This document shows, in pieces, positions 7,641 to 54,550 of a DNA stretch of 54,550 bases. The position numbers and the translations under genes are program-made. Within the stretch, counting starts at the first letter, position 1. Every line of letters begins with the position of its first letter. The stretch spans positions 1 through 54,550 of the forward strand of contig JBBTVG010000002.1 in NCBI GenBank assembly GCA_038063375.1, given 5' to 3'. The stretch is from Patescibacteria group bacterium (GTDB taxonomy: Bacteria; Patescibacteriota; Minisyncoccia; Phycocordibacterales; JANLHH01). The notes beneath the pieces were generated by a model. It saw only the letters and a list, made by a program, of their open reading frames with translations. It ran no database searches and was not told the DNA's origin.

Positions 7641-7646
7641 GTTTAC

Positions 7647-8095
7647 GTTGTATCGGGCAGTTGCCCCGACATTGTCGGGGAGGAAAGTCCGAACACTCCC
7701 CCGTCTTAGACGGGGAGCAAGGTAGCGGGTAATCCCCGTCCGGAGCAATCCGAGAGGTGCGAGCAGAGACGCCACACAACGAAAGGCGTGTGGGCGCTTC
7801 CATAAGGAAGCGTAGCCGAGCACCATCTGTGTCTCTCTCACAAGAGATAGAGATGGTGCTCGGGTGAAACGGCTAAATCCTTACCCGGGTGCAAGGCCGT
7901 ACTCCGCTGTTTTAAGAGCGGAGGGTGCCGCTTGAGCCGCGCAGTAATGCGTGGCCCAGATAAATAACTGTCGCCGAGCACCATTTGTGCGTTTATATAG
8001 TTTTGGTATCAAGACAACTTATTACGTTTTTGTCTTACCAATACTACATAGTGCCTAAATGGTGCTCGGTACAGAATTCGGCTTATAGATACAAC
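7647..8095 (+). ncRNA. rnpB: RNase P RNA (bacterial type A-like), about 449 nt
   Basis: RNase P RNA is the catalytic RNA that trims tRNA 5' leaders. P1 pairs GTTGTATC (7647-7654) with GATACAAC (8088-8095). The P4 strands are the universal GAGGAAAGTCC (around 7680) and ACAGAATTCGGCTTAT (8071-8086). P2 pairs CAGTT (7658-7662) with AACTG (7966-7970). The conserved GTGAAA after P12 is present (7865-7870). Two long hairpins share almost identical 13-nt arms: one at the variable P12 position (7816-7863) and one of 96 nt (7974-8069) between P2 and P4, where other bacteria have only a short joining strand. The RNA is flanked by a good promoter and terminator. Confidence 0.95.
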
Positions 8096-8106
8096 ACATA
8101 ACTATC

Positions 8107-32644: not shown

Positions 32645-33073
32645 TTACGCCTCCGCTTCCAACGCCAGACAAACAGAGTTGATGCAGTGCCTTTTCCCGC
32701 CTTTCTCGGCTGGGCCACCCGCCTTGACTCGGCGAGGCAGGTCGTCAAATACGTGTCCCAGGTGCGAACCGCACTTTGAGCAGACCACTTCCGTGCGTTT
32801 CATGCCATGACTCGTGTCTAAAACATATTTCACACTGCCCGGTAACGCGTCGGTAAAAGAGGGCCATCCTGTTCCGGATTCAAATTTTACCTCGGAAGAA
32901 AACAACGCATTTCCGCATGCGGCGCATGTATACATTCCCTTTCTTTTCTCTTTTAAGAGAGAGCCGGTAAATGGAGCTTCCGTACCTTTCTTGCGCAACA
33001 CTTCGTACTGTTCCCTAGTGAGCATCTCCTTCCACTCTGCTTCCGTCTTTGGCATTGGTTTTTTGTCTTTCAT
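32645..33073 (-). CDS. msrB: peptide-methionine (R)-S-oxide reductase, with in-frame repeat
   Basis: MsrB reduces methionine-R-sulfoxide. From ATG 33073 the protein has 142 aa with both zinc pairs (C50/C53 and C98/C101), GWPSF, the HLGHVF motif and the catalytic C130 in RHCINS. Between GHVF and the active-site cysteine there are eight extra residues (112-119, LPRRVKAG) encoded exactly by a 24-bp palindromic repeat; removing them restores the common DDGPAEKGGKR sequence. The gene starts 1 nt after the msrA stop. Confidence 0.94.
   Translation of the reverse strand: MKDKKPMPKTEAEWKEMLTREQYEVLRKKGTEAPFTGSLLKEKRKGMYTCAACGNALFSSEVKFESGTGWPSFTDALPGSVKYVLDTSHGMKRTEVVCSKCGSHLGHVFDDLPRRVKAGGPAEKGGKRHCINSVCLALEAEA
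32718..32741 (-). repeat. palindromic repeat, copy A (inside msrB)
   Basis: Left arm CCTGCCTCG, one centre base and right arm CGAGTCAAGGCGGG on the minus strand, 24 bp. Identical over all 24 bp to copy C at 54219-54242. It keeps the msrB frame open. Confidence 0.9.
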
Positions 33074-33074
33074 A

Positions 33075-33641
33075 TTACTTTTCTTTTTCGTTAGCATTGA
33101 GAAGCTCCGCAAATTTTTTCTGCACCTTTTCCAACTTGGGATTAATAATAAGCTGGCAATATCGATTCTCCGGATTTCGTTCAAAATAATCTTTATGATA
33201 ACTTTCGGCTTCATAGAACACGAGAAGCGGCTTCACTTCGGTCACCGCAGGGAGGCCCTCTTTGTTTGACGCGTTCACTTCCTCTATGAAACGCAGCGCT
33301 TCCTCTTTTTGTGTCTCATTGGTATAGAGAATGATCGAACGATACTGGGTACCCACATCATTGCCTTGCCGATTTACGGTTCCGGGATCATGGGTCGCAA
33401 AGAAAACCGTGAGCAGGTCGCGAAAAGAAACTACACTGGGGTCATACTCAATACGGATCACTTCAGCATGCCCCGTCGTGCCGTCGGAAACCTCATCATA
33501 GGTTGGGTTTGGTTTTGTTCCTCCCGCATATCCTGGAGCGACAGAGCGCACCCCTTTGAGCATTTTAAACACCGCCTCGGTGCACCAGAAACACCCGCCG
33601 CCAAAAATCGCTTTTTCTGTATTTATTTCTTGCTTTTGCAT
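33075..33641 (-). CDS. msrA: peptide-methionine (S)-S-oxide reductase
   Basis: MsrA reduces methionine-S-sulfoxide in proteins. The 188-aa protein has the catalytic GCFWCTE motif (16-22), GYAGG, HAEVIRIEYDP and the QGNDVGTQYRS block. It forms an operon with msrB (1-nt gap), giving repair of both sulfoxide diastereomers. The protective role against oxidants fits a surface-living cell. Confidence 0.96.
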   Translation of the reverse strand: MQKQEINTEKAIFGGGCFWCTEAVFKMLKGVRSVAPGYAGGTKPNPTYDEVSDGTTGHAEVIRIEYDPSVVSFRDLLTVFFATHDPGTVNRQGNDVGTQYRSIILYTNETQKEEALRFIEEVNASNKEGLPAVTEVKPLLVFYEAESYHKDYFERNPENRYCQLIINPKLEKVQKKFAELLNANEKEK

Positions 33642-49868: not shown

Positions 49869-49888
49869 GCCAAGACAGCTATCTTGGC
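49869..49888. repeat. tRNA-Thr-acceptor hairpin 1
   Basis: GCCAAGA-CAGCTA-TCTTGGC: both strands of the tRNA-Thr(GGT) acceptor joined by 6 nt. The right half AGCTATCTTGGC is identical to the + strand at the tRNA 5' end (49794-49805). Confidence 0.85.
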
Positions 49889-49907: not shown

Positions 49908-49935
49908 CCTGCCTCGCCTTGCGAGTCAAGGCGGG
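49908..49935 (+). repeat. palindromic repeat, copy B (intergenic)
   Basis: Left arm CCTGCCTCG, 5-nt centre CCTTG, right arm CGAGTCAAGGCGGG, 28 bp. It lies between two tRNA-Thr-acceptor hairpins. This is the only copy in non-coding DNA and the only one whose length is not a multiple of three. Confidence 0.88.
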
Positions 49936-49954
49936 CCAAAACAGCTATCTTGGC
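49935..49954. repeat. tRNA-Thr-acceptor hairpin 2
   Basis: GCCAAAACAGCTATCTTGGC; one arm has drifted (two mismatches) and the right 12 nt still equal the tRNA-Thr 5' end. Confidence 0.8.
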
Positions 49955-49985
49955 GTTATGTTTTTTCTGTAACCAGTCAGATTCT

Positions 49986-50005
49986 GCCAAAACAGCTGTT
50001 TTGGC
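49986..50005. repeat. tRNA-Thr-acceptor hairpin 3
   Basis: GCCAAAACAGCTGTTTTGGC, a perfect 20-bp palindrome. It shares the preceding AGATTCTGCCAA context with hairpin 1. The arms have changed together, keeping the pairing. Confidence 0.8.
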
Positions 50006-50060
50006 AAACAGACACAAAAGGAATGATAATACATTATCAATGTATTATCAAATGAGAGAA

Positions 50061-52325
50061 TTAGAATACAGCAGCCGAGAGTCCGTCAACCACCCCGCGC
50101 TCAACACTATCAAGGTTATCAAAAAAACTTGACGAAGATAGATCAAACCCGGCCGCCGTGTGAAAGATATAGCCAGCGGCACCCGCATTATGTGCTTCAA
50201 CAGCGGCTTGAATGAGTTCTGCTACAGTGAAGTATCCTCCGTCATAGCCATTGCGATTCTCTTCCTGAACATACACGGGCATCAAACTCCCGACTGAAGA
50301 TAAATACGCTTTCACTGCTGCCACATTTTGATCAACACGATCATACCAATTGCTGACACGCAGGAAATGTGGAGCAATAAGGTCAATCCCCGTTGCAACC
50401 TCCCCGTTAATATTTCCGCCGTCGGCATTCCAACCACCAGTGAGAATGTGCGGCTCGCAAGCGCTCGAGAAGGTAATAATGGCGTTCGGCGCCGCGGAGC
50501 GCGCAGTATTCATAAGGTCTCCCATGGCAGAATGTGATCTGCTCCAACTGCCACAGTTGTGCTCATTGACGAGGTCAAAAAAAACGTTCGGTTTGGTTCC
50601 GAAGGCCGAAACCGCGTTGCGGATAGCAACCTTCATATCGCTTCCCAGGAGATTGACGCTGAGGGCATGCAGAATGGTTATATCAACGATGATGCCTTGC
50701 GTGGCGGAGGCATGGATGAGATCACGGATAGTCTGCGTTTCTGTTGGCTTCAGATTCCCGGCCATATCGAAGATGCTCTCGGCGTCGTTACCGTTATCAG
50801 TCTTCCAATCCAGAAAGATACGGATGAGGTTAAAACCGCGCGCATGGAGTCCGTCAAGATCGGAGGTTCTCCAGTCGAGGGCATCAAAGTAGCTGACGCC
50901 AAGGAGAAATGTTGGCGTGCCATTAATGGTAAATTTATCTCCGCTTATACCAAGTACCGATGAAGAAGTGCTCGGCGCCGTCACCGTCACCGTCACATTC
51001 TTGGACACACTCTCATTCGTAGCGTTCATACACGTTAACGTGTATGTGGTGGTTTGAGAAGGTATCTTGGCGCTGGAACCTTGGAGCGATTTCGTACCCG
51101 TCCAACCACCGGAGGCCGTGCAGGATGTGGTATTCGTGGAGACCCATGTAAGGGTGGTGGATTGTCCTTGGGTAAGGGTGGTGGTGTTGGCGGAAAAAGA
51201 GAGTGTTGGCGTGGTGGAAGGAGGCGGTGTGGGAGGAGGAGGTTCCGTCACCGTTATCGTGATCTCTTTGGCGATGGTGTCGCCTTCAGTACCGGTGCAA
51301 AGAAGGGTGTAGGTGGTGGTTTGGGTGGGAGAGAATACAACCGAGCCACTCGCGGCTTTGGTGCCTGACCATCCTTCCCCCGCAGTACAGGTGGAGACAT
51401 TCGTGGTGGACCAGGTGATTGTCACGCTCTCTCCTTTCGTGAGAGAGGAAGAGGTAGCGCTGAATGAAAGTGTGGGCGTAGAAGTGGGAGGAGTAACGGG
51501 TGCGGGAGGTGGGAGAGGTGTTGGCGTTGAGAGAGCCGCTTTAACCAATACGGCAATGGTATAAGTGGCAAAAAGGTCACCATCTGAAACGGTGAGAGTG
51601 ATCTGATAGGTGCCCGGAGAAGAAAACGCGGCAATAGTATCTTTGGTATTGAGGGAGGAAAAAATAACCGAACCGGGACCGGAAGCTTTTTTCCAGAAGT
51701 ATGCGAGGGGAACTCCCGGGACACCATCGTCAGTGGCAAGACCTGAGAGTGATGCGCCATTGGGAAGGAAAACAACACGGTCTCCCGTGATGGAGAGGTT
51801 CGGTGAGCGGTTGGGGGCGGGGGTATTGGGGCTTGCCCCGTTAGAGCTAGGCTCCGTTGGAGCCGTGAGCTCTAACGGGGTGGCAAGGAGAGAGTTCAGT
51901 GTTGTTCTCGTTTTGGGACCCACGGTGCCATAGCCGGTAGAAAGAGGCGTGCCGGAAGAGACGATATTGTGCTTTTGTTGGAAGCGTTTGACGGCCGCTT
52001 CGGTCAGAGAGCCATAGTAGCCGGTGATGAGACCTTCGGGGTAGAGAGTGCCATCCTTGGCGAGATATTGTTGGAGTTTTGTAACGTCACTCCCTTCGCT
52101 TCCTTTTCCCAAGGTGGTGGTGAAGAAAGTGGCAGACGGTGATGTTTGAACCTCCACAACAGACACTGCAGCTTCTCCGGATTTCAGATTTTGAAGTTCA
52201 GTTTGGAGTATCTGCAATTCGGAAAGCAGTGAAGCGATACGCAACTCAATATCGGAAACAGTGGCGGCGCCCAAAAGAAGCGGGAGAGAGAGTGTGATGA
52301 TGAGTGTGGGGAGGAGTTTTTTCAT
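50061..52325 (-). CDS. secreted modular glycoside hydrolase with peptidoglycan-binding domain
   Basis: The 754-aa protein has a signal peptide (1-20), a short coiled coil (24-48), a PG_binding_1 domain (about 75-148), a linker holding a palindromic repeat, a PKD domain (about 172-262), two Ig-like modules of about 80 residues each with the pattern LSFSA...TLTW...CTA...GW.GTK, and a C-terminal TIM-barrel-like hydrolase (about 460-750). The barrel has VSYFDALDWR, FDLVNEHN (acid/base E, about 590) and PVYVQEENRNG (nucleophile E, about 690), as in GH5-like enzymes. It likely binds the cell wall and cuts a beta-linked polysaccharide. It follows the beta-helix gene by 3 nt. Confidence 0.85.
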   Translation of the reverse strand: MKKLLPTLIITLSLPLLLGAATVSDIELRIASLLSELQILQTELQNLKSGEAAVSVVEVQTSPSATFFTTTLGKGSEGSDVTKLQQYLAKDGTLYPEGLITGYYGSLTEAAVKRFQQKHNIVSSGTPLSTGYGTVGPKTRTTLNSLLATPLELTAPTEPSSNGASPNTPAPNRSPNLSITGDRVVFLPNGASLSGLATDDGVPGVPLAYFWKKASGPGSVIFSSLNTKDTIAAFSSPGTYQITLTVSDGDLFATYTIAVLVKAALSTPTPLPPPAPVTPPTSTPTLSFSATSSSLTKGESVTITWSTTNVSTCTAGEGWSGTKAASGSVVFSPTQTTTYTLLCTGTEGDTIAKEITITVTEPPPPTPPPSTTPTLSFSANTTTLTQGQSTTLTWVSTNTTSCTASGGWTGTKSLQGSSAKIPSQTTTYTLTCMNATNESVSKNVTVTVTAPSTSSSVLGISGDKFTINGTPTFLLGVSYFDALDWRTSDLDGLHARGFNLIRIFLDWKTDNGNDAESIFDMAGNLKPTETQTIRDLIHASATQGIIVDITILHALSVNLLGSDMKVAIRNAVSAFGTKPNVFFDLVNEHNCGSWSRSHSAMGDLMNTARSAAPNAIITFSSACEPHILTGGWNADGGNINGEVATGIDLIAPHFLRVSNWYDRVDQNVAAVKAYLSSVGSLMPVYVQEENRNGYDGGYFTVAELIQAAVEAHNAGAAGYIFHTAAGFDLSSSSFFDNLDSVERGVVDGLSAAVF
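51832..51887. repeat. palindrome with CCCGTTAGAG core inside the hydrolase gene
   Basis: Nearly perfect arms (51832-51848 and 51868-51887) surround a second small stem GGCTCC/GGAGCC. It encodes the linker TPLELTAPTEPSSNGASP between the peptidoglycan-binding and PKD domains. The core CCCGTTAGAG is shared with the inverted repeat at 31554-31668. Confidence 0.8.
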
Positions 52326-52328
52326 GCA

Positions 52329-54550
52329 TTAGAAATTAAAGAGGGTGTCGGCCCATGTCCATATTTTATCATTGATACCCAAACCGGCTCTCTGCCCAAC
52401 TCCTGTCGCACACTGATTGTAATGGGGACTTGCCGTGGTTGTTTTTCCCAAAGGAATACAGACTTGTTCGGGATTGGTCAGGAGTTTGCGATAGAAGCAG
52501 TACTCGGTGTTTTTTGAGTCAGAGGCGGATGAGCGAGTGATGTCCTCCGCTGGGGAAGCCGTGGTGAACGCAGGGGTGTTATAGAAAGCATTTTTGGTAA
52601 TAACCACGCCACTCCGCAAATCACCATCAACCACGCCTTCAAGATTAATGAATTGGTTACATTGCGTGTCATGAGTGTTCCCCCATCCAAACCGATGCAA
52701 GACTCCTGAATCTATAAAAGCATTAAAGTAGGTCTCCGCGAGATTAGTGGCGCCAAAGTCTAGTGTCACGGTATCAAAACTCCAATCCCAATTTTTACCT
52801 TTGATCTTCCAGAAGATATTTCCAATGATAGAAATGTGGTCTGCGACAGGAAATACGGGAGATACGCCCTCGCCACTGTCAAATATTATATTTTTATCTA
52901 TGCGCACATAATCACCTCCGTAATAACCTTGTTGTACCTGTAATCCATCCGAGACTCCGGTATTACTAAGTCCAATTGAAGAACCACTTCCATTCAGCGT
53001 TAAACCAAGATTATCATCTCCATTGCGCGAACCCCATAATCGGTTATTGAAGATGCGCGACGGGTTCTCTGCAATACCGCCCGCTTTAAGTGAAATGAGA
53101 TCTTCGGTAATGGCACACGGGCCGGTCCCGTTATAGTTTCCTTTGCAATCAGTATATGCCGCAGTGGTGGCATACACGTCGTTATTTTCAATAATAAGTC
53201 CTTCATGCGTCCATACACCATCACCAATAGCTATGCCTTTTTGACAATTATATATTTCGTTGTTGACGATATGAAGCCTCGGGCCGCCTGACGCGTTGAT
53301 ACACTGCGCTTCAAACTGACGACTGATGACCGGGTTTCTCAACACGCTATTTTGAATCGTGTTGTCGGGGTGGCCGTTATTACCCATCTGAAAGAAATGT
53401 GCTTCATCGTTTTGGAAAAGCAATCTGTCAAAAATATTAAAACTGCTTCCTTTATTTCCATCCCCCCACGAAAAACGAACAGACGCATTTACATTTGCGC
53501 CTCCTGCGTCAAAGGTGAGCCGATGAACCAGCCAGTAACTCGCGCTGTTTTTAAGTTGCACGGCAAAAAGACGCGCGCGTTTATTGGGAGATTGGCGTAC
53601 CGGATGCGCTCCATCGTCCGGCGAATCATAATATCTGAGCACCTTACGATTGTTGGAAGTTCCGGAGAACAGAAGATAAAGAACGTTCTTGTTGGTATGA
53701 TCCCCCGCCGCAATACAATAGGTAGTATATTCTGGATGATCTTCAATTTTGCTCCAGTCGGAGTCGGAGGGATAGACAATCGTATCGCAGGATTTCTTCG
53801 TCAGTGTTTCAATATCCACATCGCAATTCGGATTCCCTTTCCGGCATTCGTACTCGGCGACATAGCCATTGAGGTCAGCGCCGGCGATTGGTTGCGGTAT
53901 TGGACTCGGTGCAGGTTCAACCGCCGTCACAACCACCGTCACGGACTTTGCCACCACGTCTCCCGCGCCTCCTTTACAGGAAAGCGTATAGGTGGTGGTG
54001 ATTACAGGAGTGAGGGTGGTGGAACCGCTTGCTGTTTTGGAGCCTGTCCAGCCATTGGAGGCGGTGCAGGAAGTGGTATTGGTGGAACTCCAGGTAAGGG
54101 TGGTGGCAGTGCCTTTCGTGAGCGTGGTTTTCGTTGCCGTAAAAGAGAGCGTTGGCGCGGGGAGTGTAGGAGTCGTGGTGGTGGCGGGAGGAGTAGTCGT
54201 AGCGGGAGTAGATGCGGGCCCGCCTTGACTCGGCGAGGCAGGAGCGGCGATAATCCCTATGGTATACGAAGCGAAGAGGTCGCCATCGGAGACAGTGGCA
54301 GTGATCTGATAGGTGCCGGTAGAGCTAAAGGTGAGAGTGGTGGTGTTGGCGGTGAGAGAGGAGAACGTAACGGAACCGGGACCTCCTGTTTTACTCCAGA
54401 GGTAGGTGAGTGCGCCTCCCGGTTTCCCATCATCAGTGGCTATGGCAGTCAGTGTGGCTTTGTTCGGCAGGGTGACAAAGCGCTCTCCGGTGATAGAGAG
54501 GTTTGGTGAGCGGTTGGGCCCGCCTTGACTCGCGTCAGTCGAGGCAGGCC
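52329..54550 (-). CDS. secreted PKD/Ig-like protein with parallel beta-helix, N-terminus outside window
   Basis: The frame stays open to the window edge, so the start lies beyond 54550; at least 739 codons are visible. From the edge it encodes a repeat-coded linker, a PKD domain (NRSPNLSITGERFVTLPN...) closely related to that of the next gene, a second repeat-coded linker, one Ig-like module (LTWSSTNTTSC...GWTGSK) and about 520 residues of right-handed beta-helix with rungs such as IIENNDVYA and IIGNIFWKI. Such proteins bind or degrade polysaccharides or serve as adhesins. A start at the internal GTG-like codon near 53957 would cut the Ig-like module and is rejected. Confidence 0.85.
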   Translation of the reverse strand, partial: PASTDASQGGPNRSPNLSITGERFVTLPNKATLTAIATDDGKPGGALTYLWSKTGGPGSVTFSSLTANTTTLTFSSTGTYQITATVSDGDLFASYTIGIIAAPASPSQGGPASTPATTTPPATTTTPTLPAPTLSFTATKTTLTKGTATTLTWSSTNTTSCTASNGWTGSKTASGSTTLTPVITTTYTLSCKGGAGDVVAKSVTVVVTAVEPAPSPIPQPIAGADLNGYVAEYECRKGNPNCDVDIETLTKKSCDTIVYPSDSDWSKIEDHPEYTTYCIAAGDHTNKNVLYLLFSGTSNNRKVLRYYDSPDDGAHPVRQSPNKRARLFAVQLKNSASYWLVHRLTFDAGGANVNASVRFSWGDGNKGSSFNIFDRLLFQNDEAHFFQMGNNGHPDNTIQNSVLRNPVISRQFEAQCINASGGPRLHIVNNEIYNCQKGIAIGDGVWTHEGLIIENNDVYATTAAYTDCKGNYNGTGPCAITEDLISLKAGGIAENPSRIFNNRLWGSRNGDDNLGLTLNGSGSSIGLSNTGVSDGLQVQQGYYGGDYVRIDKNIIFDSGEGVSPVFPVADHISIIGNIFWKIKGKNWDWSFDTVTLDFGATNLAETYFNAFIDSGVLHRFGWGNTHDTQCNQFINLEGVVDGDLRSGVVITKNAFYNTPAFTTASPAEDITRSSASDSKNTEYCFYRKLLTNPEQVCIPLGKTTTASPHYNQCATGVGQRAGLGINDKIWTWADTLFNF
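54219..54242 (-). repeat. palindromic repeat, copy C
   Basis: 24 bp identical to copy A in msrB, but read in another frame: here it encodes PASPSQGG in the linker after the PKD domain. Confidence 0.9.
54519..54548 (-). repeat. palindromic repeat, copy D
   Basis: Left arm CCTGCCTCG, 7-nt centre ACTGACG and right arm CGAGTCAAGGCGGG, 30 bp. It encodes PASTDASQGG in the linker just before the PKD domain. Confidence 0.88.

Follow-up and report, generated by a model that had tools for sequence, protein, structure and literature searches.

A short imperfect palindrome inserted in frame into conserved genes of Patescibacteria and shared among bacterial lineages

Copies of a short imperfect palindrome found in a Patescibacteria genome arise by exact insertion of a hairpin and nothing else, and the same DNA element recurs across many bacterial lineages. 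The stretch analysed here (the window) is an entire contig, C2, of 54,550 nucleotides, belonging to genome G000 (701,876 bases in 36 contigs, about 99% complete). We consider it likely that the element is a minimal mobile palindrome, moved in trans and filtered by selection on reading frame and encoded peptide; the chemistry of its transposition is inferred.

Four copies matching CCTGCCTCG-(1-9 nt)-CGAGTCAAGGCGGG lie in the window, starting at 32718, 49908, 54219 and 54519 (Table 1). The initial annotation had described four copies at these coordinates, with a 9-nt left arm, a 14-nt right arm and centres of 1, 5, 1 and 7 nt, all of which held; our analysis adds that the arms are near-complementary, so that each copy folds as an imperfect hairpin and is more than a gapped direct repeat. 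Overall, the element is an imperfect hairpin of 21-36 bp that begins with CCTGCC and ends with GGCGGG, with conserved arms, CCTGCCTCG and (G)AGTCAAGGCGGG, and a loop variable in sequence and length. Mismatches between the arms (T at position 3, C at position 8) persist in almost every copy, even though corrected versions would have passed the search. When fixed-length searches tolerated three mismatches, nearly everything retrieved was a near-perfect copy, and the reversed control was empty. Conservation of the arms is partly a matter of ascertainment, since the strict search pattern fixed them, and our counts are lower bounds. The motif never arises in shuffled window sequence, and no Rfam family matches at the element copies in the window.

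In the whole genome, the pattern CCTGCCTCG-N(0-20)-GTCAAGGCGGG has nine matches and none when read backwards. These represent eight physical copies, because the overlap between C2 and contig C19 counts one of them twice: the last 55 bases of the window (54496-54550), at the repeat, are identical to the first 55 bases of C19, and from this exact overlap the two contigs are probably neighbours in the genome. The copy at 54519, which stops 2 nt short of the contig end, continues on C19, where it abuts a 21-bp copy. In the large repeat-domain proteins of the window, the copies sit in Pro/Thr-rich linkers. The copies at 54519 and C3:2061 have an identical centre and lie in paralogous genes, and may represent one insertion duplicated along with its gene. 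The copy at 49908 is overlapped only by chance ORFs, all shorter than 100 amino acids.

Table 1. Element copies and the genes that carry them in the window and elsewhere in genome G000 (window coordinates unless a contig is named)
Feature	Position	Strand	Length and centre	Context or basis
Palindromic element	32718..32741	-	24 bp; C (1 nt)	Inside msrB
msrB-like ORF (peptide methionine sulfoxide reductase B), insert-bearing	32645..33214	-		Function inferred from conserved sequence and homologue alignment
Palindromic element	49908..49935	+	28 bp; CCTTG (5 nt)	Intergenic, between tRNA-Thr and ORF 50061-52325 (-)
Palindromic element	54219..54242	-	24 bp; 1 nt	Inter-domain linker (PASPSQGG) of large repeat-domain protein
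Palindromic element	54519..54548	-	30 bp; ACTGACG (7 nt)	Same ORF as 54219 copy (PASTDASQGG)
ORF with 54219 and 54519 copies, open at contig end	52329..54550	-		Reading frame
Palindromic element			30 bp	In gatB
Palindromic element			24 bp	In dus
Palindromic element	C3:2061		30 bp	In C3 paralogue of the window-end repeat-domain gene
Palindromic element	C30		32 bp	Outside genes, just upstream of GIY-YIG-like ORF
Same outer arms, other centre			21 bp	In leuS
Same outer arms, other centre			30 bp	In rpiB
Same outer arms, other centre			33 bp	In alaS
Same outer arms, other centre	C19		21 bp	Tandem

The insertions themselves are demonstrated by alignment with homologues that lack the element, available for msrB, gatB and dus and for the variant-centre copies in leuS, rpiB and alaS. 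In these six genes the inserts add exactly 21-33 bp, with no target duplication and no loss of codons. A genome of the same genus, G001, has no copies of the element and lacks the insert at all four comparable sites (msrB, leuS, rpiB and alaS), and empty sites for gatB and dus were found in genomes of the same order; the empty msrB site is seen at locus L234 of G001 and also at L241 and L242. For example, AlaS reads NWSLGD-YFKKEA when empty and NWSLGD-PASPDGIGEGG-YFKEEA when filled, and MsrB reads VFDD-GPIEKGG when empty and VFDD-LPRRVKAG-GPAEKGG when filled. For GatB, the reading frame across the element gives the predicted peptide GDPASPETSQGGYSL, which includes PASPETSQGG and is a translation of the sequence only. 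Host reading frames stay open through the insert, and the insert peptides are 7-12 residues long, Pro/Ala/Ser/Gly- or Arg-rich and mostly single. As a separate observation, gatB of the relative G037 (L223) carries an unrelated 30-nt in-frame insertion (AAPTDRLKDG) at the exact site of the G000 element, which may mark a hot spot for insertion or the decayed remnant of an earlier insert.

Element length follows coding status. In G000 the in-gene copies measure 24, 24, 24, 30, 30 and 30 bp and the intergenic ones 28 and 32 bp. When copies across genomes were classified by ORFs and flanks, lengths were multiples of three for 48 of 49 copies placed in genes, 12 of 17 placed outside them and 20 of 27 whose status was ambiguous, the sole in-gene exception being the intergenic copy at 49908, misclassified through a chance ORF. 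A stricter rule based on flanks only gave 41/42 coding versus 8/14 non-coding copies. With the misclassified copy excluded, coding and non-coding lengths differ under both rules (Fisher, p = 7e-4 and 1e-4, respectively). Chance matches inside ORFs of GC-rich genomes serve as an internal control and have no such bias (6/26). Lengths of 24, 27, 30 and 33 recur everywhere, and lengths of 22, 23, 28, 29, 31, 32 and 35 occur nearly always outside genes. Because non-coding copies also lean toward multiples of three (p = 0.003 under the ORF rule, 0.09 under the flank rule), part of the length pattern is probably inherited from source copies in genes, or a matter of preferred sizes, and not made anew by selection at each site; the excess suggests that many source copies themselves lay in genes.

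Reading-frame use is likewise unequal. Five open frames, on both strands, are used, and the sixth, which contains TGA, is not. Frame +0, encoding Pro-Ala-Ser...Ser-Gln-Gly-Gly (PASP..SQGG), accounts for 28 of 39 frame-kept copies where one fifth would be expected (p = 4e-12), and 33 of the 39 are in sense orientation. Since in-gene lengths are multiples of three and frames are used unequally, selection acts on the frame and apparently on the peptide too, although a target preference may add to the skew. The initial annotation had noted two stop-free frames among the coding copies of the window, which held (xxC CTG CCT... in msrB, CCT GCC TCG... in the 54 kb gene), and had proposed a spreading element filtered by selection for reading frame, which is supported. 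Of the two checks it named, the count of length against coding status, run across many genomes, bears it out with the qualification that non-coding copies lean the same way, and the presence/absence comparison among relatives does so through the sites empty in the same-genus genome and the clean insertions seen against homologues.

Other features of the copies point to movement. They occur in both orientations, and their junctions prefer R^C, a purine before and C after the cut: the -1 base is almost never C, and the +1 base is C in 59%. Of the strand preference relative to replication and the fixed target tetra- or pentanucleotide that mark IS200/IS605-type (HUH) insertion, only this junction preference was seen, in draft contigs without an assigned replication strand. 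Loop and arm subfamilies have multiplied within a genome: in WOR-3 genome G120, CCTGTCTCGCCGAGCCAAGGCGGG is present about ten times, with no match in the other genomes searched with that pattern, and many further copies have centres CCTG, CCTA or CCCA. Exact head-to-tail tandem copies with differing loops are found at L099, L136 and L077, and one copy in G120 (L259) is apparently nested in the loop of another. The idea that targets are chosen so as to extend the hairpin was rejected, as complementary -1/+1 bases were observed 47 times against 41 expected, with no clear coupling. At L042 and L087, element copies or near-copies lie inside other hairpin-like repeats (GTCATTCTCGCG..GCGGGAA / TCCAG and GTCATCCCGACCGA..), where one repeat may possibly serve as the target of another.

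A pattern scan of GTDB genomes found at least 118 matching stretches. By record title, the patescibacterial hosts include Nomurabacteria, Harrisonbacteria, Wildermuthbacteria, Giovannonibacteria, Daviesbacteria, Levybacteria, Howlettbacteria and others, and the motif also occurs in records of WOR-3, Omnitrophota, Ratteibacteria and Bacteroidetes. Nearly all these genomes are metagenome bins, and some phylum labels may reflect contamination. Matches in GC-rich genomes (Mesorhizobium, Microbacterium and similar) have no A ahead of GTC and are taken to be chance, and reversed-pattern controls gave zero in nearly all genomes tested. Some centres, such as ACTGACG, are common to unrelated hosts. The distribution is patchy: of 118 same-order genomes, only 5 carry the strict motif. 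Among possible carriers, viral contigs and phages yielded no element, and the plasmids searched yielded one weak partial match of 23 bases. The literature searched, which did not cover all journals, contained no description of the element in Patescibacteria.

Among known systems, the element most likely belongs with protein-coding palindromic elements; it behaves as Rickettsia palindromic elements (RPE) and intragenic REPs do, but fails the size test of the former and the GTAG/CGTC tag tests of the latter. Like RPE and their Wolbachia counterparts (Ogata et al. 2000, 2002, 2005, summarised in PMC2229807 and PMC3767692), it is a palindrome that interrupts conserved genes of unrelated function without shifting their frame and also lies between genes, predicted to be translated without stops and tolerated, and the RPE criterion of an in-frame palindrome in conserved genes with insert-free homologues is met (six genes; 48/49). 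No dedicated transposase for RPE is mentioned in the bearing sections of those two papers. However, RPE measure 105-146 bp and were described from Rickettsiales (PMC2229807), a size and host range not met here, where copies are 21-36 bp long and hosts are Patescibacteria and other bacteria. The present element also differs in sequence, has a free loop and is common to many bacterial lineages, and whereas different species reportedly have most RPE positions in common, four of its sites are empty in the same-genus genome G001. GTAG and CGTC REPs (Di Nocera et al. 2013, PMC3733652) are similar in being imperfect hairpins of 20-40 bp with variable loops and tandem pairs; some lie within genes, including replication and repair genes, and CGTC REPs have no dedicated transposase (PMC3733652). 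The GTAG criterion is not met, as neither element end carries GTAG, and CGTC REPs, defined by CGTC at one end, an 8-9 bp stem, a 4-5 nt loop and a CCA tail (PMC3733652), are not matched either, given the absence of the CGTC tag and CCA tail, the variable loop and the different arms. Neither a test of length by frame nor near-identical DNA across phyla is reported in the bearing sections of PMC3733652. RAYT/REPtron systems, related to the Y1 transposases of IS200/IS605, act on hairpins with conserved mismatches, leave no target duplication and are probably mobilised in trans, and in all these respects they resemble the element. The IS200/IS605-type (HUH) criterion of a hairpin substrate without target-site duplication is met (six genes; hairpin folding), and the REPtron arrangement, in which copies of the hairpin border a Y1/RAYT gene, is absent (0/31 Y1_Tnp loci). 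PARCELs (Roske et al. 2010, PMC2996958) are also palindromic DNA in coding sequences with patchy horizontal spread among distant microbes, but they are 25-residue amphipathic tandem protein repeats in unassigned ORFs (PMC2996958), a criterion not met by inserts of 7-12 residues, mostly single, in housekeeping genes.

In our preferred explanation, the element is a minimal, non-autonomous mobile DNA. By inference, a transposase acting in trans recognises the hairpin, probably in single-stranded form; the enzyme has not been identified. An enzyme of the HUH/Y1 type would account for the hairpin substrate and the missing target duplication. Within genes, insertions that break the frame or bring an in-frame stop are removed, and the frame yielding a small polar Pro/Ala/Ser/Gln/Gly peptide is favoured. 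Natural DNA exchange is inferred to carry the element across species lines. The explanation has weak points: no helper was found, no phage or viral carrier was found, and frame selection by itself leaves the non-coding excess of multiples of three unaccounted for. A bolder reading, which we hold to be less likely than not, is that one untagged 21-36 bp family moves near-identical between phyla (Patescibacteria, Omnitrophota, WOR-3 and Bacteroidota), enters core genes without target duplication and relies on an unrecognised enzyme or integration route. If true, the element would be among the smallest mobile elements crossing phyla. The main known examples of protein-coding palindromes come from Rickettsia and Wolbachia, and here a much shorter element occurs in tiny-genome Patescibacteria and other groups, pointing to an undescribed transposition system within some of the most reduced genomes, to DNA exchange among them and to an ongoing supply of short peptides inserted into essential enzymes. 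Precise empty sites, the frame filter and subfamilies allow the origin of in-frame insertions to be measured directly. Annotation of proteins and phylogenetic work on these genomes may also be misled by the inserts.

The strongest rival, which remains possible, is that this is an ordinary REP family whose copies were mobilised by a RAYT (Y1) transposase that these genomes still carry. The element falls in the size class of REPs and, as they do, forms imperfect hairpins, pairs up in tandem and lies within some genes (PMC3733652), and Y1_Tnp is present in G000 and in 19 of 22 element-bearing genomes. Against it, the GTAG/CGTC tag is missing, and the 31 Y1_Tnp loci examined are flanked by other palindromes or by none, never by the element. 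Y1 genes in related genomes often lie between pairs of their own distinct palindromes, and the single Y1_Tnp gene of G000 (L010 1257-2022, contig C32) is both flanked and interrupted by palindromes of its own family (CAACCGAGGCCTTGCCTCGGTTG). Moreover, Y1_Tnp occurs in 74 of 118 same-order relatives, of which only 5 have the element, and is not found in G043, a nearly complete relative that bears it. A Y1/RAYT helper was accordingly rejected as a candidate, its presence failing to track the element. An all-against-all comparison of ORFs within 2.5 kb of copies revealed no recurrent mobile gene as a shared helper, and the GIY-YIG-like ORF beside the C30 copy looked suggestive as a helper, yet no such gene recurs near other copies.

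It is unlikely that multiples of three are a property of the element itself, with loops growing in threes, and not the outcome of frame selection. The non-coding lean and the recurrence of lengths from 24 to 33 in steps of three speak for this, but other lengths exist, almost only outside genes, the coding/non-coding difference is significant, and the open frames are used unequally. An inherited functional linker (PASxxSQGG) or other conserved coding motif that is not mobile draws support from the repeat-domain copies in Pro/Thr-rich linkers and from the pair perhaps copied by gene duplication; clean empty sites in unrelated enzymes, the use of five frames on both strands and the intergenic copies all but rule it out, and it is refuted for msrB, gatB, dus, leuS, rpiB and alaS. 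Chance matches or a sequencing or assembly artefact can be dismissed almost as firmly. The pattern does catch chance matches in GC-rich genomes, and two matches lie at contig ends, but the near-universal zero of reversed controls, the empty sites and the frame bias refute this reading; an adapter cannot yield variable loops, recurrence in many independent projects and frame preservation, and repeats at contig ends are expected from short-read assembly. Finally, the in-gene inserts might be skipped, by RNA removal or by ribosome bypass as in mitochondrial byps, inserts that the ribosome passes over. GC-rich hairpins within conserved domains of essential enzymes (AlaS, GatB) would fit, but we regard this as very unlikely: the frame is nearly always kept and in-frame stops are absent, neither of which bypass or excision would need, and skewed frame use indicates selection on the peptide.

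Other palindromes and inserts were seen in the window. The class A RNase P RNA at 7645-8101 (+) barely passes the score threshold; towards its 3' side it contains some 80-95 inserted nt with CCGAGCACCATTTGTG and AAATGGTGCTCGG as bounds, and a stem of nearly the same sequence as these bounds (CCGAGCACCATCTGTG / ATGGTGCTCGG) occupies 7816-7863; RPE have also been reported in RNase P RNA (PMC2229807). Three copies of the palindrome GCCAAaACAGCTaTcTTGGC lie beside tRNA-Thr, at 49869-49888, 49935-49954 and 49986-50005, and resemble the end of the tRNA-Thr gene as written on the + strand (GAGCTATCTTGGC); the element at 49908 immediately adjoins the middle copy. The related gene next to it contains, in a linker at 51830-51895, yet another long palindrome, CCCCGTTAGAGCT...AGCTCTAACGGGG.
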